Shown piece after piece: positions 4,115 to 57,408 of a stretch of DNA of 64,000 nucleotides. Source of the stretch: Cornus controversa (lineage: Eukaryota; Streptophyta; Magnoliopsida; Cornales; Cornaceae); contig CM048853.1 of NCBI GenBank assembly GCA_026545225.1, positions 42,362,755 through 42,426,754 on the forward strand, given 5' to 3'. The notes beneath the pieces are model-generated. The model was not told where the DNA came from. It worked only from the letters and a program-made list of their open reading frames with translations, and did no database searches. The position numbers and the translations under genes are program-made. The number at the start of each line of letters is the position of its first letter. Positions within the stretch are counted from its first letter, which is position 1.

Positions 4115-4227
4115 GTCTCAAAACTTGGATTTGCCTCACTGGGCTCCTTAATGATCCTGTGCCAAAAGAGGATGGCATTCATGCCCTAATCAAGGAAGCA
4201 TTCAATAGAAGAATTTTACATGATTCT
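4115..4227 (+). pseudogene. Relic of AKR exon 2
   Basis: The stretch opens after a CAAAG acceptor-like site with codons for V-S-K-L-G-F, the same opening as exon 2 of the four AKR copies downstream. After a deletion and frame change it continues as D-P-V-P-K-E-D-G-I-H-A-L-I-K-E-A-F-N, matching the [16 protein letters not shown] region of AKR-4, then decays before the D-T-S-D-x-Y-G motif. The Cys-Met-Gly segment is lost and the frame is broken. No other AKR exon is visible nearby. It is the remnant of an extra, older AKR copy at the left edge of the array and resembles AKR-4 more than AKR-1. Confidence 0.75.
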
Positions 4228-4271
4228 AGTTTAATTTTATGATAATTCTTAGCTTAAATTGAAAATTGAGT

Positions 4272-4505
4272 AAAATAATTGAATTGTTTTACAAAATTTA
4301 TTCACCCCCTTCTAGGTCTGAATCAGTGGACGTTACACAACTCTTCATTAAAATCTTGAATTCTGGTCATCTAGCTTGACCAAAATAATTGAATTGTTCT
4401 ACAAAATTTATTCACCCCCTTCTAAATTTGAATCAATGGACGTTACCGAACTCTTCGTCAAAGTCTTGAATTCCGGTCCTTAGCACTTTCAATTGGTATC
4501 AGAGT
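4272..4505 (+). mobile_element. Copia-like LTR end with primer-binding site and internal 110-bp duplication
   Basis: A unit of about 110 bp, containing TTATTCACCCCCTTCTA, is present twice in tandem (from 4272 and from 4382). It is followed by TTTCAATTGGTATCAGAGT, so TGGTATCAGAGT (4494-4505) stands where a Ty1/copia primer-binding site would. No gag-pol coding is seen downstream and no second LTR is recognised, so this is a truncated remnant just after the AKR exon relic. Confidence 0.5.
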
Positions 4506-8630: not shown

Positions 8631-9904
8631 ATATATATACATATATACAAAGTCATATATGTATATATATCTTCCACCAACCACCACTTTGCCATCCATC
8701 ATCATACGCCATCTCAAGCTCTCTCTCCTCCCCTAAAACCTGCCAACAAAACCTTAGACTGCTTCTTTTTCACCTTCAGTGGTTGACCCGGCTTTGTTTT
8801 TACTTTTTGCCATAATTAAAAGTTCCCAACTTGCCCTTTTATCCTCACTAAATCTACTATTTCGTCTCCCGGGTGGCAGTGGCGATGACGGCGACCTGAA
8901 TGAGCAAAGGTAGTTGAAGTGGACGAATTGTGCGTTGACGAACGAGCTGTTAAAGCACCCGATTGGGGTGAATCTTCTCACTAATGTGTTCAATAAGGCA
9001 GCGACGACGTTTTTGGGAAAGTGATGAGTTGATTAGAACGTATAGTGGCAAAAAAGAATAGGGTTGTCACCAGATTGTGGTGGTTCTTTGGGGATTAATC
9101 ATTGTTCAGTTGTGTGTGTGAGTGGAAAGCTAATCGGGTGATTAGATCTTTTAGGGTTATAAGGGTAAAAAAAAAGTAAATTTTTTTTTTTTATGACATA
9201 AGCAATTTTGTTTATTAAAATTAACGGTAAAATGGTACTTTTGCAATTGTCGTACTTAATGTTTCGTTTGATAAGAAGGAAGAAAATTGGATAGAAAGAA
9301 AAGAAGGGATGAATGAGACATTTCTGATAGGATTCTTCCCTTTTTTGTTTGGTTAGATGAAAAAGAAGGAAACGAGATAACACATTACTTTGTTTGTTAG
9401 GAGAAAAAGAAAAGATAGTTGCTAATATTAGATTTATTTAATAATTATGAAGTGTAGTATTGTAATTTAAAATTTCATAATAGTTTTGTTTTTTTTTTTC
9501 TTCCTATCTTCTGTACATATTTGAATGGATGAAATTTTTTAAGGTGTTTATTGCTACTAAAAAAATAATAAAGGTAGATATTTTGCAATTTTTTGATATT
9601 ATAGTTACTTCTGTTCTCTTTCGCACTAGCTCTAATTATTCAGAGAAAATGATGTCTCCTTTTCTTTTTTTCTTTTTCTTTTTTAAGTAACTTCTATGTG
9701 TTTGGACTTGGAGCTGTACACATTTGAATTCAGGCACCATCAATTGTAATTAAATAAAAAAAAAAATAGAACACTATACAATAACATTAAATCAAGTATT
9801 ATATTTATATATATTTTTAAATTGATCATGTAACACTATTAAATAGAGAATGTTCAAACACAAAATAAATATAAGGTAAAGTGCATAAAATTTATCTGCA
9901 GTTT
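8631..9904. other. Gene-free upstream DNA of AKR-1
   Basis: The stretch contains a short TA/CT-rich start, a GC-richer patch at 8860-9025, and purine-rich GAAGAAAA tracts. Bases 9727-9800 match the AKR-3 upstream at 33272-33335, marking the outer limit of promoter homology between the copies. Confidence 0.5.
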
Positions 9905-10503
9905 AAAAAGTGTGCAAAAAACTCTCTTTATATTCATTTTTCTCCCTTGTAGTTTGTATTTGATGCAAATAAATTCTTCTGAGCTAAAAACATTCTTTAA
10001 TATCAATTTTACCCTTTTATCAAAAAATTTTATACACTTTTTTTTTTCAACAATAACATTTTTATTCCTTTTATATATTTTTTTTTGTAAAATATTAATT
10101 TAATTATCAATTAAATATTCTTGTTTTATTATTATTTCGTGTTCCAGCCAAAAAAAAAATTTCACTATTTTTTTTAATTAAAAAAATGGCAATGTTTTAG
10201 AAAAAGGGCATTTTTTTAAACAATGCCAAATGTTTTGTTTTTTTAAATAGTAAAGATTTTTTTTTTGGTTAGGCCACGAAATAATAATAAAACAAGAATA
10301 TTTAAGTTATAATTAAATTAAGATTTTACGAAAAGGTATATAAAAATAAAAAAATGCTATTGTTGGAAAGTGTATAATGAAATTTGGTAGAAGAATAAAA
10401 TTGATATTAAAGAGTGTTTTTAGTTCAGAATGGTTTATTTTGCACTAAATACAAACTACAGTAAAGAGAAGTGAATATGATGAAAATTTTTTGCACATTT
10501 GAT
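9905..10503. mobile_element. ~600-bp foldback (long inverted repeat) element
   Basis: The left arm has, in order, GTGTGCAAAAAACTCTC, TAGTTTGTATTTGATGCAAA, GAGCTAAAAACA and TTTAATATCAATTTTA. The right arm carries the reverse complements in reverse order, ending TTTTTTGCACATTTGA. Arms of roughly 285 bp meet near 10200. It is non-coding. The AKR-3 upstream lacks it, so it inserted in the AKR-1 copy only. Confidence 0.7.
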
Positions 10504-10521
10504 TTAATGTAATGATGTGAT

Positions 10522-11564: not shown

Positions 11565-17475
<5,911 letters not shown>

Positions 17476-17611
17476 TGCATCTCCTGAAATGCATCAACTT
17501 GGTGGACAATCATCCATTTACTCCTGCAGATACTGTTGCTTTAGTATGTTTGAGTTTTAATATGTGATATGAGTTGCTCTGTTAACAACAGTATTTGCAT
17601 AATATGATATG

Positions 17612-17617
17612 AATAAG
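17612..17617 (+). terminator. Putative poly(A) signal of AKR-1
   Basis: AATAAG stands about 137 nt after the stop codon in the phrase ATGATATGAATAAGA, which is shared by the 3' flanks of AKR-2, AKR-3 (near 39030) and AKR-4. It is a one-base variant of AATAAA. Confidence 0.4.
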
Positions 17618-17734
17618 AAGAGCAGTGATCACTTTTATAGACAATTTAACAGTGTTTTTTTATGTTCTATAAAATTATTCTATGTATTAATAGCATGATA
17701 TGGAAACTGTATTAACACAATTATATATATATAT

Positions 17735-18870
17735 TGTAAACACATGAGAACAACGGAGGATAAAGGATATGGGAAGAGGAGAGTGAGCGAAGGGAATAAA
17801 GTTCAGCACAAGAAGCCTTACGCGGGGCCCCCCTTCCCGCGTATGGGTTAAGCCCGCGGGGGATAGGCTCCCGCGTGGTTAACCCATGCGCGGGTAGCCT
17901 CTCCCCGCGTGGGGTCAGCCCTTCCCCGCGAAGGGATGGTCCTTTTCCCGCGTAGGGATATTTACATAAAAAGAATTCTTATTCCCCATGGGGGGGTTAG
18001 CAAAGCATACAAGAGCACAGGGAGTGAGAAGATTGGGGGCAATCTTCTCTGACGGGCATGTTATGATTGGTAATTGAATTGTGTTTTCTGGGACCAACTC
18101 TGAAAGAAGTATGATTCCATAAGACACTTCTAAATTAACAATCATGGCATATTCTCAAGGGTTGCAAGGAACCATGGATGAATGGGCCATTGTGCGGCTT
18201 ACCAGCTCACAATCCCGAGTGGTTATCCTTGTAGCAGGGGCTATGTAGAAGACTATTAATTCCTCTCTTCAATATGGAAAGTAATTTGTCGCGACGTTAC
18301 TTCCAGCATTGAGAAGTGGGAATTAGAATGAGGCTACGGTGTCCCACAGACCATTTTAGGCACAGGTACAGGCTGTGATATGGTCTGAGCGATCATGGTG
18401 TCATAATGAAGCATATGGCGTCATGGTCCCAGGCGGGAAAGTGGGTTGCTTGTGGTATAGAGGATTGAGAGGAAGGCTCGTTGGGCCATGGGTATCTAAA
18501 GTTGTGCTAGTGTGACTCTACGTGGGCACCATCACAACGTTTCTCGCGGGTATGTCCAAGCCCGCGAGGGGTATAGGCTCATGGTTACAACCGGGAGTGG
18601 TGAAGGAAGGGATACGCGGCCAAGTGCCACGTAGGATGACAGCTGTCATAAGCCTCATGCCTGAGGTCTATAAATACCCCATGGCGTGGTGACATGTGGA
18701 TCATTCCGGTGCCCCCTCCCTCTCCGAATCACTTTTGTTTTCTCTCTCTCTCACCTAGCACCCAGCTCACATTCCTATTATTATTTCTCGGTTACTTCAT
18801 CAGCTTGATCTCTTACATTCCAGTCATGTGATAGTCATTCCTCATAGCAAAACTCATCTACCTATTTACA
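17735..18870. mobile_element. Solo LTR, 1136 bp, with 5-bp TATAT target duplication
   Basis: The insert begins TGTAAA and ends TTTACA, the terminal inverted TG...CA form of an LTR, and is flanked by TATAT on both sides (17730-17734 and 18871-18875), though the surroundings are TA-rich. The equivalent 3' flank of AKR-2 near 25970 lacks it. It is far more GC-rich than the neighbours at 17820-17950, contains a TATA-like TCTATAAATACCCC near 18668 and CT-rich sequence downstream, as expected of an LTR promoter on the + strand. No coding interior or second LTR is present, so an LTR-LTR recombination product is the likeliest reading. Confidence 0.75.
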
Positions 18871-19154
18871 TATATATCTATATATATATATATATAATTT
18901 TTTATGTATATACATATACTTGAATAAGATTAGTATAGAACAATAACAAATGTTAAATTTCAAGAGTTAAATATCATAAAAGATGAAGTTATACTATTAT
19001 TTTGTCACAGTAATTAATAATATATATAAAAAGTATTATTTAATATATATATATATATACACACACAAACTTCATTTTGAATGTCAATTTTGTTGAAGAA
19101 AAAACAATTGAACCCTTTGAGGTGTGTAAATAATATTTGCCCTTATTTCAAATA

Positions 19155-19450
19155 TAAATCATTGCATTAAGATGTAAATGTAGATGTACACTTATTGCAA
19201 CTCAACTCTTAAGTCCATTTCAAGTAACTAAGAAAGGCCAGCATTATGAAAAATAATTAAGGTTGAATGGTTGTTAAGCTAGGTGGAGCCAATTGATCAT
19301 CATTTTTTTATTTTTTTTCCCTTAGCCCAATGATCATCTACAGTATTTTTTTAAACATTTACAAGATTGATAAAATACCTTTAAAAGGTTCCATGGATAA
19401 ATAAAGTGATATATAACAACGGTAACACATTCCCTTTTACTTTTACTCTA
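19155..19450. repeat. Recurring intergenic block, copy upstream of AKR-2
   Basis: This matches 26700-27000 nearly continuously (ATAAATCATTGCATTAAGAT, GAACAAAGAAAGGCCA-like, AGCTAGGTGGAGCCAATTGA) and 7270-7480 more weakly. It lacks the first third of the block seen at 26480-26700. Confidence 0.65.
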
Positions 19451-19462
19451 TCTCTCTAGTTA

Positions 19463-19752
19463 GGACATTACTTAGGCACTCGTGGTGAGTACCTACCTGT
19501 CATCACCACTAATCAAAATTAAACACATCACTTTTAAATTGAAATGAAAGAAAAGGTAAATGAGTCTTTTAAAACCACTTATCACAATTTAACACATCAC
19601 TTCTAAATTGGAGAGAGATAAAAGATAAATGAGTCTTTTAGAAAAGAGTAACAGAATAATAAATGTGAAAATTAATTACATATAATTAAAAGTGATGTTC
19701 TCAATTTTGATTGGTAGTGAGATTCTCATAGGTGAGTACCTAAGTATTGCCC
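19463..19752. mobile_element. Tourist-like MITE (PIF/Harbinger type), 290 bp
   Basis: Terminal repeats are GGACATTACTTAGGCACTC at the left and, complemented, GGGCAATACTTAGGTACTC at the right. A TTA trinucleotide lies on both sides (19460-19462 and 19753-19755), the target duplication of PIF/Harbinger MITEs. An orthologous but interrupted copy is found between AKR-2 and AKR-3 (28154-29235), so this insertion predates the block duplication. Confidence 0.7.
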
Positions 19753-19755
19753 TTA

Positions 19756-20856
19756 TAGTTATTTTACTAGTTTGACCATGTGTTCTCTTTATTAGCTAAT
19801 TATTCATAAGTGCAAAAAGCTTTTCAGAGTAACATAATATCCCCTAAATTATAACATTTTGTAATAAAATGTCCCTCATTTCTATCATATGATGAACTAT
19901 TTCTCAGTAAATGATCATTATGCCCTTTTTTATTGAATTACACTTAACCCATTTTTCTTATTAAAATAAATTATGAAAATAATTCATACTATTTTGATAA
20001 TATATTCTCTATCAGGTTTGCATAAATTTACTTTAATTCTTAAAATTAATTGTTTCGATAAAAATCTTAAGTAGAAAATTTTAAAACAATTTAAGTAATA
20101 TCTTAATTTTTCATGAATATACTGCATGAAAAAGAAGGTATTTTTTATTTAAGTAATTTCTTAATTTTCATGAATATATTGTATGAAAAGTTTTTTTTTT
20201 TTACTGTAAAAAAGTTCAAACTAAAGTTGTAATAATATCATTTTAAAAAATAGTTAAATTTGGTGGTAGTTACAACTCTAGTTATTTTTTTTTCATTGTT
20301 AAGGTAAATAGTATAATTAATATTTAGAAAAGAGAAAAGATAATAAAAATAATTTAATAAGAAATGACAACTTAATAAAAATGGGTAAAATGGCCAAATG
20401 GCCTTTTGCGATGGGTAAGTTCTTAATTACAACGTAGGGAGACAATTTATAGTCAAGGAGTTATTTGCAAAAGGGCAATAATTGGGAGTTTTTATTTTTT
20501 ATTTATGCAGTTTACCCTTATTCATATTAATGACATCTGATCATGTAAGGAAAAACCACGTGAATTTTTTTATTTTTTTTAAGATTTTGTTTGATAATTC
20601 AATTCAAAGATATCCAAAAAAAAATATATATATTTTTTTAATTACCACTTCAGAATTTTAGCAATCTTAAAATTTTCTATTTTATGAAACTAACATCTAC
20701 GTAGTAATCAAATTATTTTCTATACATATTTGAATGAGATGCCATCAAATTTCAATAGAGAAGCGATATGGTCGGCGTAAATACACCGGTAAGAGGTTTC
20801 ACTGGCTACATTACCCCGTCCACGTAGTATAATACTATAATCCAAAACCCATAAAC
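19756..20856. other. AT-rich spacer, duplicated in part before AKR-3
   Basis: Bases 19790-20090 match 29236-29562 (AGCTAATTATTCATA, AATGTCCCTCAT-like, AGTAAATGATCATTATGCC, AAAATTTTAAAACAATTT). The homology breaks at about 20092/29562. No gene is seen. Confidence 0.55.
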
Positions 20857-20980
20857 GCACGTAATCCGTGACGCAGCCACCTAGCTTTGGTTAATGGAGT
20901 ACTGAAGTGATCAAATATTATACTCCACCAACCACCAAAACATTTTTTTAAACATATGTGTGTGTGTTTGTATATACAGA
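20857..20980 (+). promoter_or_regulatory. AKR-2 proximal promoter with array-shared motifs
   Basis: CACGTAATCCGTGA, CAGCCACCTAGCTT, GTGATCAAAT and ATACTCCACC...CCAAAACATT match the AKR-1 and AKR-3 promoters. The AKR-2 version reads GTGACGCAG where the others read GTGAAGTCAG, creating a TGACG core. The TATA region is the weaker TATATACA at 20971-20978. The leader phrase before the ATG is conserved. Confidence 0.55.
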
Positions 20981-21050
20981 TGATGGCGTAGATTCATTCT
21001 TTGAAGTGTAAGCTGAGTTCCGATTTGAAAGGAGAAAGTAAGTTTTAACA

Positions 21051-25718
<4,668 letters not shown>

Positions 25719-25856
25719 TGCATCTCCTGAAATGCATCTACTTGGTGGACAATCATCCATTTTTTACTCCTGCAGATACTGTTGCTTTAGTGTGTTTGAG
25801 TTTTAATATGTGATATGAGTTGCTCTGTTAACAGAGTATTTGCATAATATGATATG

Positions 25857-25862
25857 AATAAG
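25857..25862 (+). terminator. Putative poly(A) signal of AKR-2
   Basis: AATAAG lies in the conserved ATGATATGAATAAGA phrase about 140 nt after the stop codon. Confidence 0.4.
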
Positions 25863-26346
25863 AAGAATAGTGGTCACTTGTATGGACAATTTAACAGTGT
25901 GTTTTTTATGTTCTATAAAATTATTCTATGTATCAATAGCATGATATGGAAACAGTATGAACACAATTATATATATATAAGATTAGTATAGAACAATAAC
26001 AAATGTTAAATTTCAAGAGTTATATATCATAAAAGATGAAGTTATACTATTATTTTGTCACTGCAATTAATAATATATATATAAAGTATAATTTGTTATG
26101 TATATATATATATATATACACACACACAAACACTTCATTTTGAATGTCAATTTTGTTAAAGAAAAAACAATTGAACCCTTTGAGGTGTGTAAATAATATT
26201 TTCAATATTGTCGAGAATTGTATGGGGAGAGCTGGGCAAGTGTTTTGGAAGTGATAGTTAAATTTATTAACAAATTATAATATAATAAGTACATTCATGA
26301 AATATAAATAGATATTTAAAGTGTCCACGAAGTGTAAAACCCTCTA

Positions 26347-27010: not shown

Positions 27011-27020
27011 TACGACAAGA

Positions 27021-27695
27021 ACAATGCTTGGGTTCTACACCAGCAGAACAAAATTTTTTTTGCTAGGTGAGGTGACCAAAATAAATATTGACATGAGTTC
27101 AAAATGCTATAATATTAAAAAATTAATTAAACGTAGTGTATATGAGTTAACCCATCTCAAATTATAACGAAATCTTCTTTTTAACCTACAAATAATTTTT
27201 GAAAACCCCAAATCAAGAAAAAGTTTATCGGTTTTAGATGACATAACAGTGGTCATCTCACGGCAAGTTGTGATTTTCCATTTGCAATTACAAGTTGAAC
27301 TCCAAGACACAAATCAACAAATGTAAAAATAACAAAATTACCTACAAAGAGCTCTACAAAATTTTAATATATCTTTTATATATATATAGATACAAAGTGG
27401 GTAAATCTCCCTCTCTCCATATATATATAGACATATATATGTAAATCATTCTCTTTCCATATATATATACAAACTCAGTAATCCCTCTCTCTCTCTCTCT
27501 ATATATATATTTAAATCTTATATATACACCATTAAAAGGGGATTTGATATGGTGAGAGCTACAGCCCCTTTTAATGGTATATATAATATTTAAATATATA
27601 TATAGAGAGAGAGAGAGGGATTACTCCGTTTGTACATATATATGGAGAGAGAATGATTTACATATATATGTATATATATATATGGAGAGAGAGAG

Positions 27696-27742
<47 letters not shown>

Positions 27743-28148
27743 GAGAGATTTACATACATCTAAGATATATATGCAGAGAGAATCCCACTTTGTATCTATA
27801 TATATATAAGATATATCAAAATTTTGTAGAGCTCTTTGTAGGTGATTTTGTTATTTTTGCATTTGTTGATTTGTGTCTTGGAGTCCAACTTGTAATTGCA
27901 AATGAAAAATCACAATTTGCCGTGAGATGGCCGGCCGCTATGTCACCTGAAACCAATAAACTTATTCTTGATTTGGGTTTTAAGAAATTATTTGTAGGTT
28001 AAAAAGAAGATTTTCTTATAATTTGAGACGGGGTTAACCCCGTATAAACTGGATTTAATTAATTTTTTAATATTATATCATTTTGAACACATGTCAATAT
28101 TTATTTGGGCCACCTCTTTGTCCTACTAGGGCAGTACCCAAGCATTGT
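27021..28148. mobile_element. 1.1-kb near-perfect palindrome (foldback element)
   Basis: The ends are ACAATGCTTGGGT and ACCCAAGCATTGT. From about 27078 to 27540 the sequence is repeated as its reverse complement from about 27570 to 28112; matched landmarks are TAAATATTGACATG, AATATTAAAAAATTAATTAA, CAAGACACAAATCAACAAATG, TACAAAGAGCTCTACAAAATTTT and CCATTAAAAGGGG. The arms are about 470 bp or more and the centre lies near 27555. It is non-coding with TA- and GA-rich tracts; the Tyr/Ile-rich frame across the right arm is a microsatellite artefact. Its termini resemble those of the MITE beginning at 28154, suggesting related mobilisation. Confidence 0.75.
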
Positions 28149-28153
28149 CCTTG

Positions 28154-30166: not shown

Positions 30167-32600
30167 AGAACTTGGAGAATAAAGGAGTCTTGTATATATA
30201 TATATATACACTCTAGTATTAAGCTATCATACCAATAATAAGAAAATAAAACTAATATTTGACTTTAATATTAGTTAAGCAAATCTATAATTATCTGTTA
30301 TTTTACTTTTGAAATTTTTTAATATCTATTTTATTAATTTTTAATCCTTTCTGAATTTCTGAATTCTTTAAACTATTACACTTCTTTTAATAGCTAGTTA
30401 TGGACACAACATAGATGAATAAGTAAATGTTAAGTTATTTATATATATATATACAAAAACTATAACTCATCTCAACATTCAATATCAAAAAATAATAGGC
30501 ATAAATGTAATGGCTTAAAACGCCGTAATAGAGTTTGAAAATTTGCGTGTCTCAAATGAGTGATATAAGCCTTTAATCTACTTTGGACATATATATGAAC
30601 TATAATTCTAACATTGAAATTAATGATAAATTTGCATCACATCAAATCAAATACTTTCAAACATTAATGTTTCAGAAGTCTTATTCTTGTAGTCTAAAAA
30701 TTTAGTGCAATAGTAAAATTGCATTAACTTGATCACTTATATCCATTTAAAAAGAAAAAAAATGAAAAGATTATAAAAACTTAGATAAATTAGAAACTAG
30801 ATACTTTGTTTAATATAATTATGCAAATTATAATTTTAAATTAGTTGAAATCAATTTTTTTTTTCTAAATTAGAGATTAAAAAAGAAAATAATAACTCGA
30901 TCATAGAGAATAAAAAAAGGATCGTACTAGTTGTTGCTATAGATGTCACTGAGATTAATTTTGTTTTTATGATTTATGATTTCTCTTCCTTTGCTTTTAA
31001 ACTTCGTTACGTTTGTCTAAAAAATTGTACATAAAACAATCTTAATATTTCAAACAAATATATAAATATATATAAAGGGCGCAATCTTAACCATAGCAGA
31101 AGAGAACAATCTTAATTATTTAGCTGGAACGAACATAAATTTTTATTATTATTTTAATACGATCATATTTTATTAGTGGCTGATATAAATTACTAAGGTA
31201 TATAATATATGTAGTGTTTCTTTTCGTATTTCTTTAGTCAAATCATCCGATCATAAATTTATTTTTCTCATAGTAGTTCATTAGTCATTTTTACACCATT
31301 ATCATCTAGGTAAAAAAGTATTAATATTTTTTATAGATGTTGATTTCCTGTTAAATTTAATTTTATATTATTTTATCTGGAGCTATAGAAATAACATTTA
31401 TTCTTGTAATCATGATTAGCTTCGACATGATTTTAGGCTATATAAGTCATAAATTAATTTGATTTATATATTTTGAAGTCATATAGCAAAAAAATTGTAT
31501 CTATTACTTACAATAGCACGTTATAAAGTCTTACACAATCATATTTAAGGACAAGAGCTTCCTATTCATAAATTAAAATTTAGTAATAGTATACATTTGA
31601 ATTCTAAAGTTTTGCAAAATTTCTGTTTTATGTCTTCACAAAATTATAGAAAATGATTTTTTTTACACATACCCTATATTCAATCATGTCCCAAATTATT
31701 ATTATTATTATTATTATTATTAAATCTTATATAATATTTAATATCAATCCAACAAAAAAAATAAGTAAACCAATATAATAGATTAACATAATCATTATTA
31801 TTTCCATAATATTCAAATCTAAAGATTATAATTGACTACATAAACATATTAATAATCACCGTAAAATAAAAACACATTATAAATTATTTAAGGAAAACAA
31901 AAGATATAGGAAGAGTAGAGAATGTATGTTTTACCATCACGGAGGGTCATCCCAACACATCCCATCACCGACTTTCTTCGTTTTACTTCTATAAATTTCT
32001 TTTTCTCAAACAACCTACAACAAGTCCTTAAAGATAAGTAAAAGAGATAAAATATGAGAGAAATTGAAAGTCAGATAATTAGTTTGGTTTGTTTGCATTC
32101 CTCTGAAATTTTTTTAAGAGTAATATATTACAATTAAATTATTTAAAACTCTCTAAGAATTTCAGGAATAATGTATTACAATTAAATTAAATAATTTAAA
32201 ACTCTGTCAAGAGTCTATTATTAAAAGAATCGTGGCATAATTAAAGAGTGTTAATAATAGGTAATAGAGTTTAATTGTAGAATTAGTAATAGAAGAATTG
32301 TGGTATACATAACTAGATGATTTGAAGCTTCTTGGAGTATAGATATATATGGTGTGCCAAAAGCTGAAAAAGAAAAAGAAAAAAAAAAAAAAATTTGTTT
32401 GTAGTCTGTCAGACAACTGCATAACCATCCCAAGCCAGAAATGCCTGAGAACGATCCTCTACGGCTATGTTGGTTCAAGACCACAGAGCCAATAATCACG
32501 CTCTGGTCATACAGTCATGGTTCATCCACCAGACTTAAGTTCCTGTCTCCTTAGAATTCAAGGATACAGAGGTACGAGCCTATAGAACAGATCCTGTTCA
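30167..32600. other. Gene-free, strongly AT-rich spacer
   Basis: Long A/T runs, short TA tracts (30194-30208, 30441-30452) and an (ATT)n run at 31697-31722 dominate. No conserved coding pattern, paired terminal repeat or RNA gene was found. Confidence 0.55.
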
Positions 32601-33260
32601 AGTAAGGTCGTGACAAGTCGTGTTCACCTCATGTTATAAATCGTGTTCGTTTTTCTACTTCTTTATCGATGTGGGATGGTCTACTGATTTCTCTGCATAT
32701 GAAGAAAACAGTGTTGCTAGCAAAACTCTTGTACACAAAATCAAAAAACCATCTTTCACTCTCTCTAAAATTTTCTTCCTCAAAGTTCAGATCTGTAAAA
32801 ATCTTCTCTCTAAATTTTTCTTCCTCAAAGTTCAGATCTTCTCTCACTAAAATTTTCTTCTTCCTCGTCGTGATTCGTTGCCCCATTCACATCCATGTTT
32901 GCCTCCAACCACACCTGAGCCGTGCAGCTATGACTCGGTTCGATTGCACTCACGCTGACTCGTTAACCGGAGGAAGAAGACTCGCGTAATGTAACAACCG
33001 TTTCATGCAATCGATCGGCTCGGACAGAGAGACTTGAATTCCGAGATCAAATTGTGAAGCCTATCGGCTGCGCCGGAGAGTCCCGCTAGAGACACGGTGA
33101 CCACCGCCAAGCATGACGCCGACGGTTACTGTTTCGAGATTGTTATTTTAATGGATGATGAGATGATAAAGAGTAGACTTTCGAATCGGAGCTGTGAATA
33201 CATCTGTGAGAGATTTGAAGAATAATTGTCTCGTTTTTTCTTTTTGCACATTTGAATTCA
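32601..33260. other. GC-richer patch with CTTCCTCAAAGTTCAGATCT repeats
   Basis: The phrase TTCTTCCTCAAAGTTCAGATCT occurs twice (near 32771 and 32818) with CTCTCTAAA/TTTTTCT sequence between. Downstream, 32990-33180 is locally GC-rich (GGCTGCGCCGGAGAGTCCCGC) unlike its surroundings. A 106-codon frame (32669-32989) overlaps the repeats but shows no recognisable domain. It could be a gene fragment or an LTR leader. Confidence 0.35.
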
Positions 33261-33659: not shown

Positions 33660-38904
<5,245 letters not shown>

Positions 38905-39350
38905 TGTATCTTCTGAAATGCTTCTACTTGGTGGAAATTTTGCATTTCCTCCCGGAGATACGATGTTGATGTTGAGTTTTAATATGTGATCTGGGTTGCT
39001 CTATTAACGGAGTATTTGCATGATATGATATGAATAAGAAGAGCAGTGATCACTTTTATAGACAATTTAACAGTCTTTTCGATGTTGTATAAAGTTGTTT
39101 TATTTGTGTGTGTACCCGAAAATGGAGACGATTTGAAATTGGTATGTTTCACAAGAAAAAGAGAGGGAAACAGAGGAAATATAATACGTAGAACTAATTG
39201 TGTTAAACCACCATTTAATGTGTTGATTAATGCACCATTCTGCACTTCTATTTTTTGGATAACAGTCTTGCACTCTTGTGCATTGTCAGTTGTTATGTTA
39301 GGTAAAAAAAAATTATTTATCATGTTCAATATGTCTTCCTTGAAATAGGT

Positions 39351-41509: not shown

Positions 41510-42445
41510 GGGATAATTATACTTACCTCCCTTCTAATTTGGTTTTATAACACTTACCTCCCCTGTGTTTTGGAATATAACACTTACCTCCCTCTAATTT
41601 GCACATTGGTAACAAATACCTCCTTTTATCAATCAAACTAACAGTTATTGCTAATATCATCAAAATTTAATCTTAAAAAGACAATTATAACCTCAAAAAT
41701 GTTGCAACTGAAGTTGGCGAGTCTCGATTTCAATGACAGCTTCGACATTGGGATAGTAGTGGCTAGTGGTTTGGCCGGAGCTGGGTCTTCTCAGCAATAG
41801 TTTTAATGGTGAGTGTTGATGGCGTAGGTGGTAAAGCATAGTGGAGATGGAGTTGGGTGGCGGCTCGGCTAGAGGTGATGTCACTACGGTTGAAGGTCCG
41901 AAATGGGTCTGCTCACAGTGGTGGTTCATAGTGGGGGAAATGAGTTTACACAACTGTTTGAGTGTTGCTTAAATAATGGTGGTGGAGTTGGTGGTTTGGT
42001 AGGTCTGATTGACATTGGGCCTTTTTGGCCAATGTGATGACGGCAGTGGAGATATAAGTCTTCTAGGTGCGGCAGTGGAGGTGGTGAGTCTTGGCTTCAA
42101 TCGCAACTTTGGCATTGGGATGATAGTGGTTAGGGATCTTCTCGGCAGTGGTTTCAATGGTGATTGTTGATGGTGCAGGTGGTGGGTGGTGGCTCTTCTG
42201 GAGGTGATGTTGCTATGGTTGAAGGTCCGAAGTGGGTCTGCTCAAAATGGTGGCTCATAGTGGGGTATAATTATCCTTTTAAGATTAAATTTTGATGATA
42301 TTAGCAATAACCGTTAGTTTGATTGACAAAAGGGGGTATTTGTTACCAATGTGAAAACTAGAGGGGGGTAAGTATTATATTCCAAAACACAGGGGAGGTA
42401 AGTGTTATAAAACCAAACTAGAAGGGAGGTAAGTGTAATTATCCC
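41510..42445. mobile_element. MULE-like foldback element with ~185-bp inverted arms
   Basis: The left arm (41510-41698) begins GGGATAATTATACTTACCTCCC and continues CTCCCCTGTGTTTTGGAATATAAC, ACTAACAGTTATTGCTAATATCATC and AATCTTAAAAAG. The right arm (about 42262-42445) is its reverse complement and ends AATTATCCC. Flanks are T runs (8 Ts left, 12 right), compatible with a 9-bp T-rich target duplication that cannot be bounded. The interior carries two direct copies (about 41706-41940 and 42082-42262) containing CTTCTCnGCAnTnGTTTnAATGGTGA and GAAGGTCCGAAnTGGGTCTGCTCA-like phrases. The open minus-strand frames there (41693-41953 and 41969-42157) have no recognised domain. Confidence 0.75.
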
Positions 42446-43054: not shown

Positions 43055-43232
43055 GGGTAAATTACTCTGACCTCCCCTGAGGTTTGATCTAATTACACTC
43101 AGCATTAAACTATTGAATTTTGGTACAATGACCTCCCTTGAGGTTTGCTCCGTTATGACACAGACCCCCTCCGTCCAAAATTCCGTTAATTTGGTCAAAA
43201 AATTTCGTTGAAAAGACCAAAATGCCCATCAA

Positions 43233-43280
<48 letters not shown>

Positions 43281-43877
43281 TATATATAATATATATACAT
43301 ATATATACACTATTCCGGTCATCTTCTCCGGTGATGTGCACTATTCCGGTCATCTTTTTCGGCGACTTTCACGGGTTCCGGTCATCTTCTTCAGCGAATT
43401 TTCGGCGAGCTGCAAGGTTTCGGTAATCTTCTCCGGCGAATTTCCGGCGAGATGCACTGTTCCGGTCATCTTCTCTGGGGAATTTTCGGCGAGCTTCTCT
43501 ATTCCGGTCATCTTCTCCGGCGAATTTTCGGCGAACTGCACTATTCCGGTCATTTTCTCCGGCGAATTTCCGGCCACCTTCATTTTTCCGGCGACCTTTC
43601 CGGGAAGTCAATTTTGGCCATTTTTTACCAACTCAAACTAGTTCCTAGCTAAATGGACCATTCCAGACGCAACTGTGAAGTTTGTTTTTTAGAATTCAGC
43701 TTCGATTTGTCAAATTTAACATCCAAGTGTTGTGATATTAATAAAATATATTAATATAATATTAATAAGGGTATAATAGACATTTCACCCAAAAATTAAC
43801 CTCTGTTAGTCAATTTCTGTTAGAGGGGAGGTCATTGTAACAAATTTCTTTAGTTTAATGCTGGCTGTAATTAGGAC

Positions 43878-43908
<31 letters not shown>
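43055..43908. mobile_element. MULE-like foldback element carrying a 42-bp minisatellite
   Basis: The left arm starts GGGTAAATTACTCTGACCTCCCCTGAGG; the right arm ends as its complement, CCTCAGGGGAGGTCAGTG then AATTTACCC. Inner arm parts (CAATGACCTCCC / GGGAGGTCATTG) also pair. T runs flank both ends. The interior holds the TA microsatellite at 43236-43275 and the minisatellite at 43312-43604. It shares the GGG(A)TAA-T terminus with 41510-42445 and probably the same superfamily. No transposase is seen. Confidence 0.7.
43312..43604. repeat. 42-bp minisatellite, about five full units plus two short ones
   Basis: Each unit is close to ATTCCGGTCATCTTCTCC followed by GGCGAATTTTCGGCGAnCTGCACT. Units start near 43312, 43343, 43378, 43420, 43462, 43504 and 43546. 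Because 42 is divisible by three, frames on both strands stay open: 14-residue repeats of the type E-N-S-P-E-K-M-T-G on the minus strand and P-V-I-F-S-G-E-F on the plus strand. I do not claim a protein. Confidence 0.8.
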
Positions 43909-47389: not shown

Positions 47390-48932
47390 TGTGACATCTC
47401 ATGTCACGTGGTTTAGGTATGATGAAAAAGATGTGTTTATATGTAGCGTATTTTTTTTAAATGGTATAAGATTTTTTAAATAAAATTAAAAAAAAATCAT
47501 ACGGGTTTGACTCAAAATAAATACTATCATACCATCTATTGGAGCGGGTTGTTACAAATGGTATCAGAGCTGGAGTTTGGAGCCCAGTCGGATATATGGC
47601 AAATAGCGTGCAAAAGCTCATGAGGGAGACGTCAGCGAGGAATCTGACTCACCTCCGAATTCCTAGGGATGTCACCAACACATTTGAAGGTGATGGCATT
47701 CACACTAGAGCGTGCACCAAAGTATGCGACACACACCGCATTCAGGCCCCAGTGATTGCATGCCATGTCGGGCGAGTTGCAACTTGTTGGGGTAATGCTG
47801 GAGGCACGACCTGGCCAATTAAGGCCAAGAGCGCATCGCTGACAAAAGAGATAAGATAACCGATGCACACTAAATGCAGACTTATCGGCCCAACCCAAGG
47901 TCCAACTACGAGCTTTTTAAGTGCAACAATTTAAATATATGCTATTGGATCTTGAATTACCACGACTACTTTTCATTAATCAAGAATGAAAGTTGGGGGC
48001 TCGAAGACGATCAAATACCATCCTAGTCTCAACCATAAATGATGTCGATCAACGGATGTTATTTTTAGGACTCCGCTAGCACCTTATGAGAAATCAAAGT
48101 TCTTGGGGAGCGGGTCGTTACAAATGGTATCAGAGCTGGAGTCCAGACCGCAGTCGGACTTATAGTGGATAACATGCACAAGCCTATAAAGGAGACATCA
48201 GCGAGGAATCTGACTCCCAAAAGGGGGTGATTGTGACATCTCACATTGCCTAAGTATAGTGAAGGGGATGTGTAGAGGGGGTGATTGTGATGTCCCACAT
48301 CGCCTGAGTATGATGAAGGGAATGGTCTATATATGTGGTGTGTTCTCTCTAATGGTATGATGTCTTTTGAGGTAAAATCCAATAACAAAATCATATGGTG
48401 ATGGGGAGATACTGAAGGGGTGATTGTGACGTCCCACATCGCCTAGGTATGGTGAAGGGGATGTGCTTATATGTGGTGTGTTCTCTCTAATGGTATGATA
48501 TATTTTGGGGTAAAACCCAAGGCCAAAATCGTTCGAGCTCAGTCCAAAACAGACAATATCATACCACTTGGAGCGAGTCATGACAAATGGTATCAAAGCT
48601 TGACCCAGCCGAACATCTGATGGATGGCGTGCACAAGTCTATAAAGGAAACGTCAGCGAGGACGCTGACTCCCAAAAGGGGTGATTGTGACGTCCCACAA
48701 CACAAATGGCATGCACAAGTCCATAAAGGAGACATCATCCAAGAAGTTGACTCCTAAGAGGGGGTAATTGTGACGTTTCACAATGTTTGGGTATGGTGAA
48801 GGTGATGTGCTTATATGTGGTATGTTCTTTCTAAATGGTATGAGGCTGGCCTTTTGGGTAAAATCAAGGAACAAAATCGTAAGACATTGGCCCAAAGCGA
48901 ACAATATCATACCATGTGGTGGAGCGAGTCTT
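47390..48932 (+). mobile_element. Concatenated TRIM array: six LTR starts with tRNA-Met primer sites
   Basis: LTR starts of the type TGTGACGTCCCACATCGCC occur at 47390, 48232, 48286, 48425, 48686 (truncated) and 48769. Full LTRs are about 161-167 bp and end GGAGCGGGT-GTTACA (47556, 48122) or GAGTCATGACA (48585). Primer-binding sites TGGTATCAGAGC follow at 47559-47570 and 48125-48136, and TGGTATCAAAGC at 48588-48599. Interiors are only about 105-110 bp, contain a GCACAAGnCnATAAAGGAnACnTCA phrase, and end in a purine tract (AAAAGGGGGTGAT) before the next LTR. The first interior is extended to about 550 bp by unrelated sequence. No protein is encoded. Confidence 0.8.
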
Positions 48933-49930: not shown

Positions 49931-52900
49931 ATGGCTGAGGGGCAGAATGTTGAGATGCCAAGACTCAAACTGGGTAGCCAGGGACTTGAGGTATAACCCT
50001 TTCCTTTTCCATTCCCATCAAAGAAGATTAATGTTGATATAAATTTTATTATAATTCGATTTCTTGATTTTTTATTGATTTATATTTAAGAATGAACATG
50101 AAAGGATACAACGTGAAACCCAATTCAATATTTTGATATTCAATCTCATTAGCAGAGAAAAAGATCTATTTATTTTGTTTATTGCATTAGATTTTCACCG
50201 TGTCTCTATTCTGTTATACTATGTTTGGAGGAAAAAAATGGAGAGAAATAGAAGGAATAATGTGATTGATTATGAAATTTCTAACTTCTGAGAAATTAAC
50301 ATGCTTTTAGAATTAAAGAGGACTGCTTTTATTCTTAATGTTATGCAAGAAATGTTGTTTAAGCTTGTTAACCATTACAAATCGGTGTAAGCTATGGAAT
50401 TGCATGGAAATGGTAACTGTAGTATTGATATTCACCAAGAAAAATAGTAATATATATATATAGTGATCCGTGGAAATACAATTGCATTTTTTGTGTAGAA
50501 TCTTGAGATATCGTAATGCTACAAACCATTATCAACAGAAAAAGGATTCCGTATCCATAAGTACTGATGAATGCCAAGTTACACTTCGCCAGTACCTTCT
50601 TCTTTCTCTAAAACAGGATTCTTGGCCTTCATTTCGAACTATTTTTTTGCTATTAACGGTTAAGTGTTGCCCGATATGTGTTATCAATGTCAATGCTAAG
50701 TATAATGCTTGCTAGAGTTGTGGTACCAACTAATTTTTCTCATGACATGCTTGCTTTGAAGTTTCCTATTTGAAATAATTGAGAATAGTGTTCTGGATGT
50801 TACTGAAATCCATTTGTAAATAAATTAGAGAGAGTAGATTGAGATGGTTTGGACTTGTGTATCAAAGACCTAGAGACGTGCCGGTGAAGTGAGGAAAACT
50901 AGTTGTGAAGAAGGTAAGAGATGGAGAGGGTGACCAAAAATAACATGGGATAAGGTTTAAAAAATGACTTTAAAAAGTTAAATTTGGTAGGAGAAATGGT
51001 ATGTAATAGAAAATCTTGGAGAGAGAGAATTCATGTAACCGACCCCATTCATGTGGGATTGAGGCAAGGATGATGATGTTGCTGAAATCCTTGCATCTAA
51101 TCGTAACTAAGTAGATTGGGAGATTTTTATCAATTTCAAGCAATTAAGCTTCAAAATTTTATAACCCAGAGCATAATCAAACCCATTTATAGTTGTTGGC
51201 TTCAATTGTTAACCTGTGAAAAAGATTTTATTTGTGAAGCTATCCTCATACCATTTAAGCCGTAGCTCTTCTATGGAGATGATAATTTCTTAAATGGTTT
51301 GTTTACCTCTAACATTACCAATACCCAGACTGGATAGAAGTAGGGAATAAAATTCTTATGTGCAAGGACTGGAAGAACCATAAAAGAACCGAGAAGCCTC
51401 AATATAATAACCATCATATCGGCTCTATGTTTTTTTGATTGTTTGTTTCTTCTTAGATGGTAGAGAAAAAATATTCTTTTGTTTCTCGTCCATTCCTAAA
51501 TTGTGGAGTCTTTTGCTGTCACAGGTCTCCAGATTGGGGTATGGGTGTATGGGGCTTTCTGGAGTCTACAATGATCCGCTCCCCGAAGAGGATGGCATTT
51601 CAATAATGAAGGATGTGTTTGATAAAGGAATCACATTCTTTGATACATCAGATATTTATGGTTCCAACCATGCAAATGAAATATTGGTGGGAAAGGTAAT
51701 TGTATGTGAGCATTGTTCCATTAAAGCAGTACCTGTATATTTTTGACAGAACTTTTTTTGTTTTAAAAAAAATGTTGATCATATCATTGCTTTTCTGGTT
51801 TATATTGCATAAGGAACCATATTTGTCAATTTCACAAATGTTTGGGGCATTTGAATGTGAAGTGCTTCATGTTTAACCTAGAAACCCCATACTGAGGGAG
51901 GGTATCCCTCCTTCTGTGTGTGTGTGTTACTTTGTTAAAGGAAAAACAAAATATTAAAGGAGGATATTGATGTCAAAGGTTAGGTTTGTAAGCAATATAG
52001 GATTCCCAGACTGGCATTGAGCAACAGCTTCATCATATTGGTTCTGTTGGCTTAGGTGTGTATTATTATGAGGTTATGCTTGCCTAAATTAGAATTCAGT
52101 CTGTCATCCTGCTAAACTATTTGTATAATATGATATGCAATCATTAATACATGAAATAGATTGTCATAGTCATACACAATAAACAAGTTGCCAATGAACT
52201 TACAGTCTGCTCCCATTAACCACTCGGGACCTCAGGCATCGACCTAGGAAGATTTAACTTTATGAGATTACTAATACATGGACGAACAACACATCTTTAG
52301 TAATACAGCCTTCCAAAAGTCCAGAAAATCGAAGTCGGTTTTTTCACTTAAGAGTATTATAAGCATTTTTGGCAAGAAAAATCAATTTCTCGGTGCTACA
52401 AACACAAGTTATATGACTTTTATGAGGAGTACACCCCATCTCTAATTTCCGTAGCTTTCCCCATAGTGAATAAAAAAAAGGTCGTACCCAGTGCACAAGG
52501 CTCCCACTTGAGCGGGGTCTGGGAGAGGTAGATGCCGGCTAGCCTTGCCCCCATTTTTGGAGAGGCTGCTTCCAAGTCTCGAACCCGAGACCTATCGCTT
52601 TTGGGTGAAGGCACTTGCCATCGCACCAAGGTGCAACCTATCGCACTTATCCCATAGTGAATGTAATCTTTAAATTCCATATGTAAGGAAATCGTAGGAA
52701 AGGGGTTGAGGTGGGAGAGATTGATGGAGCTTTATTTCTGAATGGGAAAAATACCTCGTTCTTCCCAAACATTTCCCACAAAAAGTTAAAGAGGGACTAA
52801 TCTAAAGTCTTCTTAGTCACCAGGGGTTCATTGGTCAAGGCATTCTTTTAGGCTGATGACAGTTTTAAATGGTTATAAATGTGCAGAGAAGGCGTGAAGG

Positions 52901-55900
52901 ACATGGAGATGGTTATAGGAATGTACTAATGATCTGCAATCTGCACAATTTTGGTGGTTAGAGGAAGTGGAGAAGCAACATGGCAACATTGCGACGCATG
53001 GCAAATGGAGAAAAAGGCAGTTATTTTCAACAGACAGCTTAAAGTTTTAGTTAACTAAAAGCTCGTCTTAGATATATTTAACTGAAATTACCATAAGTAT
53101 CGGACGATGACAATGAAACTTGAGACCGATCACCCTTTAGACTGTTTAGCATGCTTTTTTGAAGCAAAAAGAACTGTGATACAAAAAATTGAAGTTCAAA
53201 ATTTAGAAGTATAAAATAGAGAACTTGGTATTTAAGAATGTGATTTAGACTGAACATTTGTTAATTGCATATATTATCAATTGGCAGCTTCAATTTCTGC
53301 TTCAAAATTTCAACACAGTACGAATCTGGGCACATCTTACTTCCGTTTATGTTTCTAGACTGTCAATATATATATATATATATTTGCTGAAAAAATTCAG
53401 ATCATTTTTTGCTGGTTGGAGTGGTATTTCATCTAGTAGAGCCCTAATCTTGCAGGCATTAAAGCAGTTGCCTCGTGAAAAGGTCCAGTTGGCCACAAAA
53501 TTCGGTGTTGCCAAAACTGAACCTAATCGTTTTACAGTGAAAGGCAATCCTGAATATGTCCGCTCCTGCTGTGAGGGTAGCCTGAGCCGTCTTGGTGTAG
53601 AATATATTGACCTCTACTATATACACCGAATAGACAAATCAGTACCTATTGAACTCACTGTAAGGATTATAGTTCTTTTTGTCCATATCCATCAATAGGC
53701 CTAAGGTCTTGATTTATTTTTCTTTATTTTTATTTGAAAAATGGTATCATAATTGCTGCCAAATTCTAAATAATTTAAATTTTATTTTTCACGTGTAGAT
53801 GGGGGAACTTAAGAAATTAGTGGAAGAGGGTAAAATAAAGTACATTGGCCTATCCGAAGCTAGCCCAGGCACAATAAGGAGGGCACATGCAATTCATCCT
53901 GTCACTGCTGTACAAATGGAGTATTCCCTTTGGTCTCGTGACATTGAGGAAGAAATAATCCCACTTTGCAGGTTTCTTCATGTTCCATCTAAAATTCTTG
54001 CAGGAGTCTGTATTCATTTACATTTTGTACTTAACAATTTGCAATGTTTGTTAACATGCTACTCTTTATCTCAATAACAAATCCCCTTACGAAGAATAGT
54101 ACATTTGGAGAATGCACCTCTTACAAATAAAAGTACATCTAGAGAATGACCTTGTTTGACATTTTAACTTCAACTTCCTAAGATCGAATATGAGATTTCG
54201 CCTTTAGAGTATGGACAAGGATATAGGATACAAATACGACATGATATGAATATTGTGATATGACAAATTCTTAAAAAGAAGGTTACATATACAACAAGGA
54301 CACAACAATTCATATATATATTTATCCATGTGTATATTTTATGTATGGCATTTAGATAAATAAAAAATTTGAGGATATATATGTACCTATATATAGATGT
54401 TTGTCATCTTACATACATATATTATGACTAACATTTCCTTATGACACATTAAACGAGTAATTTTTTGAATCTATCAAAAAGCTGAAGAAGCTGAAAACAA
54501 TGCATTTTTAATTTATAATATTAAACATCACATGAAAAATCTGAGAGAGGTGTTTTATGGACATGGCTTTTGGACTAATTTAGAAATGATATATTTTCAC
54601 TATATCTTAGTTTAACTGATCTTATGGCCTTAGATTGAGTAGAATGGAGAAACAGGATTCATACAGGCAACCCTAAATAGTTGGAAAAGGCTTTTTTGAC
54701 TTGATTATATTCTCATTAGTTTTAGACATGAAACCCTTGTTATGCTTTTTCTAACAATTACATTGTGATATTATACTAGAAATATTACATTCTAAGGTTC
54801 AAAATGTATCGTACATCTACTCCGGAGTAACTTGAATTTATCATATGCATTTTTGGGACGAAAAACCTATTTTAAAATAATCAATACATTTAGGAAGTAA
54901 TGGACATGCATCTACGAGTATTCAAACAAACAGAATCAGTATTTTGATATTGAAATAATACATATATGACTCCTTTATAGAAGTATCCTCTTCCGTGGAT
55001 TTTGCCTGTCAAACTTCCATCATCTTCTGTCCTTTACTATACTTCCAATTTGTTTTATTCTTTCCTTTTATCTCATATGTTCCTAACTATGTTTTGACTT
55101 CTGATAATCAGGGAACTTGGAATTGGGATAGTTCCATACAGTCCAATTGGTCGTGGATTTTTCGGTGGCAAGGGAGTTGTGGAAAGTGTGCCTTTAAATA
55201 GTTTTTTGGTACAAACTGCATCTGTGTCTGGAATTTTCCTTGACCATTTCCTTAGTTTAATTGATTTTATGACATAAAGAACCTTTATAATCTAAATTGG
55301 GATTGAAATTTCCTCTTTTTTGCATATTTGGACAAACTTGGTGAACACATGAGTCAAATGGCAAAATTTTCTTTTTAACAGGAAAGACATCCTAGGTTTA
55401 TAGGAGAAAACATTGAGAAGAACAAGATCATGTATACTCGAATAGAAGCATTGGCTAAAAAGCATGGATGCCATCCTGCTCAGCTCGCTCTTGCATGGGT
55501 TCTTCATCAAGGGGAGGATATGGTACCCATTCCTGGTGAGTGACTTATCAAATTTTGCTTCATTATTACAAAATTTGATTTTGAACTTGCTTCATTGCTA
55601 TTAAAGCATAAGTCAAAAAGTACAAACTGATTAAACAATAGAATAGACCTCAATACTTTACTTGTAATGAAAACAAAGAAACTGGAAGTGTGCTCCCTTC
55701 AGAGTTCCAAGGAGGTTTTCCATGAGTCTTGAGAAGTACAATTTATAAAATGACAGGAAAAGAAAAAAAGTTATAATATTCAATAATCCACCAAGTTTAG
55801 AGGAGAAAAAACTCATATTATGTGAAATTATAAAATTGCCAAAAATGACTAGAATAAACTAGAACTTTATTGAAACGGCCTAATTTTTGGGTCTGAAAAT

Positions 55901-57408
55901 GGCCCCAGATTGAAAGTTATTGCCTTTTGAAGTTTGAAATTGTAAGGGAACAAGTTCTGGAAGTGGGTTATTTCCAAGGTTGACGTAAGACAAAGAAAGG
56001 AAAGGATGAGAGGGTAGGGGAGAGAACATAGGCAAGGGAATAAATGAGGGAGTAGGCCAGGAGAGCGGCAGAATCTTGAGGTAGTCCCCCCAAATGATTG
56101 CCTTGTCACAGTCCTATCTTGATCTTGTCAAGGATCTACTTGTGGTCCTTCTTGATACCTCAGACATTTCACCAAGCCTGCACTCAATACCGAATGCATT
56201 AGTATCTGTCCATGTGAAGTCATTGGAAGCTCCATATAAAGGGAAAGATTCAAACGCCCTTGGAAACACTCAAAATGGTCAATCAGAAGGTGCCAAAGAG
56301 AATCTTTTCATCAGGTGCCTCAAGGGCGTCCCAGGCGCGCCACGTGGGAGCCTTACTTGGTCGCCATAAGGAACCACTATGTGGCACCCCACTTGGGTGC
56401 CTTATTTGGGCACCATAAGGCACCACTGCTAGGCGCCCCAATTGGGCGCTTCGTGTGTGTGTGTGTGTCTATATATATATATATATATTATTTTTATTCT
56501 TTTTTTTTTTTTCAAAGTGTTTTTCTTTGATTATTAATTTTTGACACTCCTACAAAGCTACTTTCTTATAGCTTTTGATTAGTTTTTGATGACCCAAATG
56601 CTCTATATAATCCAATGCCACTTGTTCTACATCAAGTGTTCTCAAATTGGATTAGCCATGTCGCACTGCCAACCAAACAAAAGATTTCTATTTTTTATTT
56701 TTTTGGTGGAAGAGTTGTTTGCACATAGCAAGCATAATTATCATAGGTTAAACTGGAAGCTCAGCTCATGCATGGGGTATATTGATAAATCAAAAACTAT
56801 GTAAGCAGGATAGACCCATTTCATTTACCTTGATTCACCATTTGCCTTCTGGATAGTGAGAGATAACTTGAAAACATGTCTGTCAAAGTAATTTCTGCTT
56901 CAAGCTTATATTTTTTCTTATTTTATTTCCCCCATTTTCCCCAAGAAACAAGCAAAACAAACAGACTACTAAGAAAAAATGATATTGTATGTGTGTAATT
57001 ATTATTATTATTGAATTTTCACTAATGCCCGCAGTTGAGGAGTCATCTAATGCATCATTGCTTGCATGAAGACATCCATTGTTTTCTTCATGTCCAAAAT
57101 TTTGTCAATTAGAAAAAATAACTAAACAGAGATGCTCTGAACTATATTGTTTTTGTAATTGCGCCTTTGAATTCAATGACTAAATCAGTTTTTATCTTTG
57201 TATATTGTTAGGAACAACGAAGATAAAAAATCTTGCTGATATTATTGGTTCTGTGAGAATGAAGCTCACGAAAGATGATGTAAAAGAGATCTCTGATGCG
57301 GTGCCTGTCAATGAGGTGGCTGGGCCTGCTACTCCTGAAGCTTCTGAGAAATTCTCATGGAGATTTGCTAATACACCACCGCCAAAAGATAGCAAGTCAT
57401 CGGCCTAA
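49931..57408 (+). CDS. AKR-4: perakine-reductase-like aldo-keto reductase, 351 aa, 7 exons
   Basis: Exons are 49931-49990, 51525-51695, 53456-53659, 53799-53971, 55112-55208, 55382-55535 and 57212-57408, all GT-AG, with TAA at 57406-57408. Exon lengths equal those of AKR-1 and AKR-2. The tetrad is D60 and Y65 in the canonical D-T-S-D-I-Y-G, K92 in A-T-K-F-G, and H134 in Y-Y-I-H-R; the cofactor segment G-T-T-K-I-K-N-L is intact. The stretch from P-L-P-E-E-D-G-I to P-I-P-G-T-T-K is the most family-typical of the three copies, and it probably preserves the ancestral function: NADPH-dependent carbonyl reduction in the cytosol, substrate unknown. It is the most diverged copy and lies 11 kb beyond the AKR-3 pseudogene. 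Introns 1, 2, 4 and 6 are enlarged by inserts. Confidence 0.92.
50830..51080 (+). mobile_element. RTE-clade LINE 3' end in AKR-4 intron 1
   Basis: GATTGAGATGGTTTGGACTTG translates as L-R-W-F-G-L, the C-terminal reverse-transcriptase end common to plant RTE LINEs. It is followed by R-P-R-D-V-P-V-K, then decayed sequence, AACCGACCCCATTCATGTGGG and GATGATGATG. The insert is 5'-truncated and non-functional. Confidence 0.75.
52472..52650 (-). mobile_element. Au-type tRNA-derived SINE in AKR-4 intron 2, with TSD
   Basis: On the minus strand the element reads CTTGGTGCGATGGCAAG (A-box region), CGGGTTCGAGACTTGG (B box), GCAGCCTCTCC, then GGAGCCTTGTGCACTGGGTACGACC and a short T tail, the plan of the plant Au SINE. 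It is flanked by a perfect 12-bp duplication CCCATAGTGAAT (52460-52471 and 52651-52662). The clean duplication suggests a fairly recent insertion. Confidence 0.9.
54632..54705 (+). mobile_element. RTE LINE 3'-tail fragment in AKR-4 intron 4
   Basis: GAATGGAGAAACAGGATTC followed by AACCCTAAATAGTTGGAAAAGGC is a decayed form of the same kind of LINE tail as at 51033-51080. It lies in the part of intron 4 that is expanded (1140 bp against 358-400 bp in AKR-1 and AKR-2). Confidence 0.5.
55860..56560. other. Insert of unknown origin in AKR-4 intron 6
   Basis: This stretch has no counterpart in the intron 6 of other copies. It includes a locally open frame (56094-56369, +), GC-rich sequence at 56290-56450, a 49-bp tandem repeat (56340-56449) and GT/TA microsatellites at 56454-56488. 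No known domain is recognised; a captured gene piece or an LTR are possible. Confidence 0.4.
56340..56449. repeat. 49-bp tandem repeat, ~2.3 copies
   Basis: Units starting CCACGTGGGAGCCTTA (56340), CCACTTGGGTGCCTTA (56389) and CCAATTGGGCGC (56438) contain GnCnCCATAAGGnACCACT. The GGTGCC/GGCGCC phrases make short internal palindromes. Confidence 0.7.

Follow-up and report, generated by a model that had tools for sequence, protein, structure and literature searches.

Perakine reductase is an aldo-keto reductase (AKR) that catalyses the reduction of perakine, and the enzyme of the PDB entries is presumably AKR13D1 of Rauvolfia serpentina. Here we analyse a run of related genes in Cornus controversa (GenBank assembly GCA_026545225.1, contig CM048853.1, positions 42,362,755 to 42,426,754 of the forward strand), a stretch of 64 kb with 33% G+C and 0 N that we refer to as the window. 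In the literature, AKR13D1 is grouped under monoterpene indole alkaloids (PMC8524200), and a perakine reductase homologue of the alkaloid plant Ophiorrhiza pumila is reported to be coexpressed with secoiridoid genes (PMC7810986). The same label is given to genes or proteins of apple (PMC6312547), cucumber (PMC6901629), soybean (PMC7793830) and grapevine (PMC7037071), so the substrate is not readable from the name; in a paper on the rhubarb genome, perakine reductase served as a search seed (PMC11005207). Members of AKR13 need not act on alkaloids, since the dahlia protein DvAKR1 is cited as a chalcone reductase in a paper on mulberry (PMC12528653). As for how such genes multiply, tandem duplication is described as the main cause of AKR amplification in Brassica rapa, as in Arabidopsis, with 37.9% of the B. 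rapa AKR genes (PMC7503288). The Cornus window very probably contains a locally duplicated array of AKR13D-type genes for predicted NADPH (reduced nicotinamide adenine dinucleotide phosphate)-dependent reductases, one copy of which has been reworked by recombination.

Results

Self-comparison of the window revealed collinear blocks at about 11-17, 21-26, 33-39 and 50-57 kb, and the AKR array, which lies on the plus strand, comprises three intact seven-exon genes (copies A, B and D), one pseudogene (copy C) and two relics. Copy A is located at 11565-17475 (exons 11565-11624, 13426-13596, 14372-14575, 14712-14884, 15285-15381, 15546-15699 and 17279-17475; Pfam PF00248, E 3.2e-74), copy B at 21051-25718 (exons 21051-21110, 21895-22065, 22823-23026, 23163-23335, 23694-23790, 23955-24108 and 25522-25718; E 2.1e-73) and copy D, the most diverged, at 49931-57408 (exons 49931-49990, 51525-51695, 53456-53659, 53799-53971, 55112-55208, 55382-55535 and 57212-57408; E 1.1e-75). 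The spliced models have exon lengths of 60/171/204/173/97/154/197 nucleotides in common, all 18 introns (18/18) are of the GT-AG type, and each frame closes with one terminal stop to give a product of 351 amino acids. PF00248 is matched by the three products with 247-255 bits against a cut-off of 24, and the catalytic tetrad Asp60-Tyr65-Lys92-His134 is complete in every one of them (3/3). The proteins are identical at 318/351 (A-B), 279/351 (A-D) and 274/351 (B-D) positions, and the ratio of nonsynonymous to synonymous divergence (dN/dS) is 0.31-0.35 for A-D and B-D. Seven exon profiles run on the window with nhmmer at E up to 1 found the four copies, an exon relic at 4116 and six weak matches (E 0.07 to 0.84).

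To place these products we turned to solved structures. The nearest ones in a PDB search (composite query; copy B) were those of perakine reductase (3uyi, 3v0s, 3v0t and 3v0u), and perakine reductase chains were the only close matches. Over 337 residues, identity to this enzyme amounts to 244 residues (72.4%) for A, 235 (69.7%) for B and 241 (71.5%) for D, and the counterparts of the tetrad are, we take it, Asp52, Tyr57, Lys84 and His126. AKR nomenclature places proteins with more than 60% identity to a founding member in the same subfamily, and A, B and D each exceed 60% identity to perakine reductase, the founding member of AKR13D. These comparisons support the assignment of A, B and D as putative AKR13D-type, that is, perakine-reductase-like, AKRs. 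By analogy with the family, the most likely activity of the three is the reduction of aldehydes or ketones at the expense of NADPH; hydride would pass from NADPH to the carbonyl, and Tyr65 would act as the proton donor, assisted by Asp60, Lys92 and His134.

The array is of an ordinary kind, a tandem set of genes from a plant enzyme family that is already known. Its copies are same-strand neighbours with homologous introns or flanks: the introns can be aligned between copies (67-94% in local alignments, some of which extend into an exon), and homology between A and B is also seen in their 3′ flanks, in both self-comparison and flank alignments. In the noncoding body, A and B differ at 117/2598 sites (4.5%), A and C diverge by 10.0-16.8% in noncoding or mixed body segments (int2, int4+ex5, int5+ex6, int6a and int6b+ex7), and D is more distant from A, B and C than these are from one another, which gives the branching order D, then C, then A/B. 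Successive tandem duplications would thus have split off D first, then C, and would finally have separated A from B. Our models agree with a first-pass annotation of the same DNA, which had described three intact copies with identical exon lengths, 351-residue products and tetrads, had called them perakine-reductase-like and had ascribed them to local duplication. That annotation did not include what we consider an added point of interest, namely the structure of copy B and its link to one of the relics.

Copy B looks like a mosaic, a reading that is well supported: its 5′ part is shared with a relic downstream, which we call R, and its body is shared with A. The stretch of B from the last portion of intron 1 to the proximal 3′ flank, exon 7 included (21762-26201, plus strand), is A-like, with the 117/2598 noncoding differences counted to 25979 and 11/215 for 25977-26201. 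The 5′ flank, exon 1 and the first part of intron 1 (20836-21662, plus strand) fall outside the recent A lineage; here, in global alignment, A and B differ at 100/624 noncoding sites, or 16.0% (5′ flank 44/192, first part of intron 1 56/432), a proportion well above that of the body (Fisher p 1e-20). Relic R (29676-30169, plus strand) consists of two pieces of intron 1 (29676-29965 and 29963-30169) with 71-93% identity to intron 1 of the other copies, and no exon was found within it. Its first piece is 93% identical to B 21279-21560, and its second piece matches C 34810-34923 at 91% and A 12928-13183 at 71%, gaps counted. Over the R stretch, R differs from B at just 8/280 sites (2.9%), from A at 27/252 and from C at 35/275.

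The position of the change can be narrowed down. At 533 sites two, and no more than two, of the copies A, B and C agree; the agreeing pair is A and B at 39/123 of these sites up to B 21581 and at 302/410 rightwards (p 8e-17). The best break lies at B 21406-21411, with A=B at 24/97 sites on the left and 317/436 on the right; its chi-square of 79.2, from a test that assumes independent sites, was matched by none of 2000 permutations (0/2000; permuted maximum 18.6). The match to R extends to B 21560 and the full match to A restarts at 21762, which together with the best break places the exchange within intron 1, at about 21.41-21.76 kb. For some 100 bases at the junction (21663-21761), the other copies offer no counterpart at E 1e-3. 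Recombination would later have reworked the array in such a way that B combined an R-type 5′ flank, exon 1 and start of intron 1 with an A-type body, and the exchange in intron 1 may have been unequal crossing over or gene conversion. Among the literature matches listed, no AKR paper was tied to a tandem array, a chimeric gene or unequal crossing over.

The remaining members of the array are degraded. Copy C (33660-38905, plus strand) retains nhmmer matches to 7/7 exons and carries at least eight lesions: the start codon has changed from ATG to CTG; exon 3 has an in-frame TGA, a 23-nucleotide deletion and a lost donor GT, and its codon for the catalytic His has become one for Ile; exon 4 has deletions of 13 and 36 nucleotides; and exon 7 has a 1-nucleotide insertion. 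The second relic is a decayed AKR fragment with a broken frame at 4116-4215 (plus strand), picked up by nhmmer with a profile of exon 2 built from the four copies (E 2.2e-10, 35.5 bits). It holds exon 2 alone, and because similarity to the splice acceptor region of the remaining copies persists at its left end, it is probably a decayed genomic copy and not a retrocopy. The broken fourth copy, the exon-only relic (placed at 4115 in the first-pass annotation) and the intron-only relic (placed at 29685) are thus all recovered. The count of at least six copies holds, with the nuance that beside the four copies and the exon relic it reckons R as a lost copy, of which no more than part of intron 1 is left; the first piece of R is nearest to the 5′ part of B.

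Several other elements lie in the window. Between relic R and pseudogene C, a complete plant U3 small nucleolar RNA gene is located on the minus strand at 32403-32611 (Rfam RF01847, 186 bits, model 1-221 of 221). Like the genes and introns of the window, it is of plant type. Upstream of it we observed ATCCCACATCG at 32667-32677, followed 26 nucleotides later by the TATA-like TTTATAAC, and a T-run lies close downstream; plant U3 genes of the RNA polymerase III type have such an upstream motif, a TATA-like element and a downstream T-run. Self-comparison also detected related dispersed repeats in both orientations (47411-48930, 62304-62849 and 531-992), possibly a mobile-element family. RTCCCACATCG occurs in these repeats at 48292, 48431 and 62453, and the U3 gene, too, has this motif on its upstream side. 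A foldback-like insertion of about 1.1 kb (27018-28150) in the 3′ flank of B is absent from A and is made up mostly of inverted repeats (27016-27747 vs 27352-28153), and downstream of A there is a segment of about 1.2 kb (17734-18923), with AT-repeat sequence at its borders, that is absent downstream of B. Further inverted-repeat, foldback-like stretches were found by self-comparison at 9903-10507, 41510-42445 and 43055-43908, the last two of which resemble each other at their ends, where GGGATAATTA and GGGTAAATTA follow a T or A run. A scan using the bacterial code found no tRNA in the window. The window has 35 open reading frames of at least 100 codons, 9 of which hold AKR exons; 10 of the non-AKR frames were searched against Pfam and showed no family match, so that these ten gave no sign of a neighbouring pathway gene.

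Discussion

The points that weigh against B as a working reductase reshaped by recombination come from its coding sequence, its 5′ end and its distal 3′ flank, and to these it must be added that the models of A, B and D are built on homology and splice signals. The coding sequence raises the question of whether B is a pseudogene in the making, with its tetrad kept and its function lost or fading. The A and B proteins differ at 33 residues, and where perakine reductase has the same residue as the other two intact copies, 10 changes are confined to B (G30E, E42D, D63N, C202S, H238I, A258T, I291K, K304Q, K307E and A323V) and 3 to A (L19F, S213C and K223R). When D is used to polarise the changes, 21 nonsynonymous and 9 synonymous ones fall on the B branch and 13 and 9 on the A branch, while 7 sites stay unresolved. 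Together with an A-B dN/dS of 0.52-0.62, the 21:9 changes on the B branch would be compatible with a loss of function in B. However, its frame is open, its splice sites and tetrad are intact and dN/dS stays below 1, so we regard a fading B as a possibility to be taken seriously, though an unlikely one.

Part of the A-B divergence is concentrated at the end of the gene. Exon 7, which encodes the C-terminal portion, differs more between A and B than any other exon, with 29/197 sites against 44/760 in its flanks (p 1e-4), and 14 of the changes fall within 50 nucleotides (17376-17425) that encode a C-terminal stretch beyond the Pfam match. As dN (0.135) and dS (0.294) are both raised (dN/dS 0.46), this divergence taken alone does not signal positive selection; it may stem from a short tract exchanged with an unseen copy. 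A bolder proposal is that B is chimeric in function as well: recombination in intron 1 would have put the promoter and first exon of the lost sister copy R on an A-type enzyme, B would be expressed where R once was, and it would have gained a new role through its changed residues 30 and 63, placed near the active site by analogy, and through its diverged exon 7. We consider this proposal doubtful as a whole.

At the 5′ end, the size of the A-B divergence varies with the alignment, from 10.9% in local alignment over the whole 5′ part with exon 1 (82/751 sites) to 16.0% in global alignment; exon 1 alone (3/60 sites) is uninformative on the mosaic, and the R-B comparison comprises 280 sites in all. 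Hence it could be argued that B is not a mosaic and that its 5′ end simply evolves faster than its body, as 5′ flanks and introns can. The rate control speaks against this, because A-C divergence, at 13.5% for the 5′ flank and 13.9% for the opening part of intron 1, stays inside the range of the A-C body. This control is good for the whole 5′ part and weaker in the R stretch, where A-C divergence reaches 18.5% (46/249), higher than in the other A-C segments, and where A=B is the commonest two-of-three pattern (A=B 23, A=C 4, B=C 18). Nevertheless, R and B differ by 2.9% where A and B differ by 10.7% (26/244), and that match is independent of the A-C control. A fast 5′ end is accordingly very improbable as the explanation.

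We give slightly less weight still to an assembly artefact in which two copies were misjoined in intron 1. Tandem repeats of such similarity misassemble easily, and the junction bases that match no other copy would fit a misjoin, but B has unique sites in the exons on either side of the junction and carries insertions of its own in its 3′ flank, which makes this explanation very improbable.

A mosaic B that arose by recombination in intron 1 leaves the matter of how many events were involved. One unequal crossover between A and the ancestor of R within intron 1 would explain both the mosaic and the position of R downstream of B. As the full history of B, a single crossover was rejected: it predicts about 4.5% divergence throughout the 3′ flank, and the proximal flank of A is indeed near that value (17476-17733, 11/257; 18924-19138, 11/215), but the distal flank, within A 19145-20092, differs from that of B at 33/316, 31/245 and 32/306 sites, in total 96/867 or 11%. 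Because of this, the history of B calls for either a conversion tract, the second edge of which would lie near A 19138 / B 26201, or faster evolution of the flank; self-comparison found no third copy of the distal flank in the window.

Finally, that the array is an indole-alkaloid specialised-metabolism cluster of true perakine reductases diversified in substrate is very unlikely: it can draw on the 70-72% identity to the nearest solved structure, on the coexpressed Ophiorrhiza pumila homologue (PMC7810986) and on the diverged C-terminal exon 7, but the same label is placed on apple, cucumber, soybean and grapevine genes, a dahlia AKR13 is cited as a chalcone reductase, 0/10 scanned non-AKR frames matched any Pfam family, and exon 7, with its dS also raised, gives alone no selection signal. 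The hint at indole-alkaloid or specialised metabolism in the first-pass annotation is supported by none of our results. For annotation, the value of the analysis is that the copy count is confirmed and that it cautions against reading alkaloid chemistry from a best-hit name. Beyond that, copy B probably exemplifies the exchange of modules between members of a tandem enzyme array, and what is left of the other partner can still be seen at the locus. If B were expressed under the promoter of the lost copy, it would show in compact form how recombination in an intron can swap promoters.

Compared with the systems described so far, the tandem AKR genes of Brassica rapa and Arabidopsis likewise have local duplication as a main route of amplification (PMC7503288); that source covers the whole AKR superfamily, and the likeness to the Cornus array is one of description. 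The same holds for DvAKR1 of dahlia, which, like the array products, belongs to the plant AKR13 subfamily. Perakine reductase itself aligns with the array products along its entire length and has the same Asp-Tyr-Lys-His tetrad, whereas the array products have eight more residues at the N-terminus and six more at the C-terminus. Copy B differs further from it in that Gly22 is replaced by Glu (residue 30 of B) and Asp55 by Asn (residue 63 of B).

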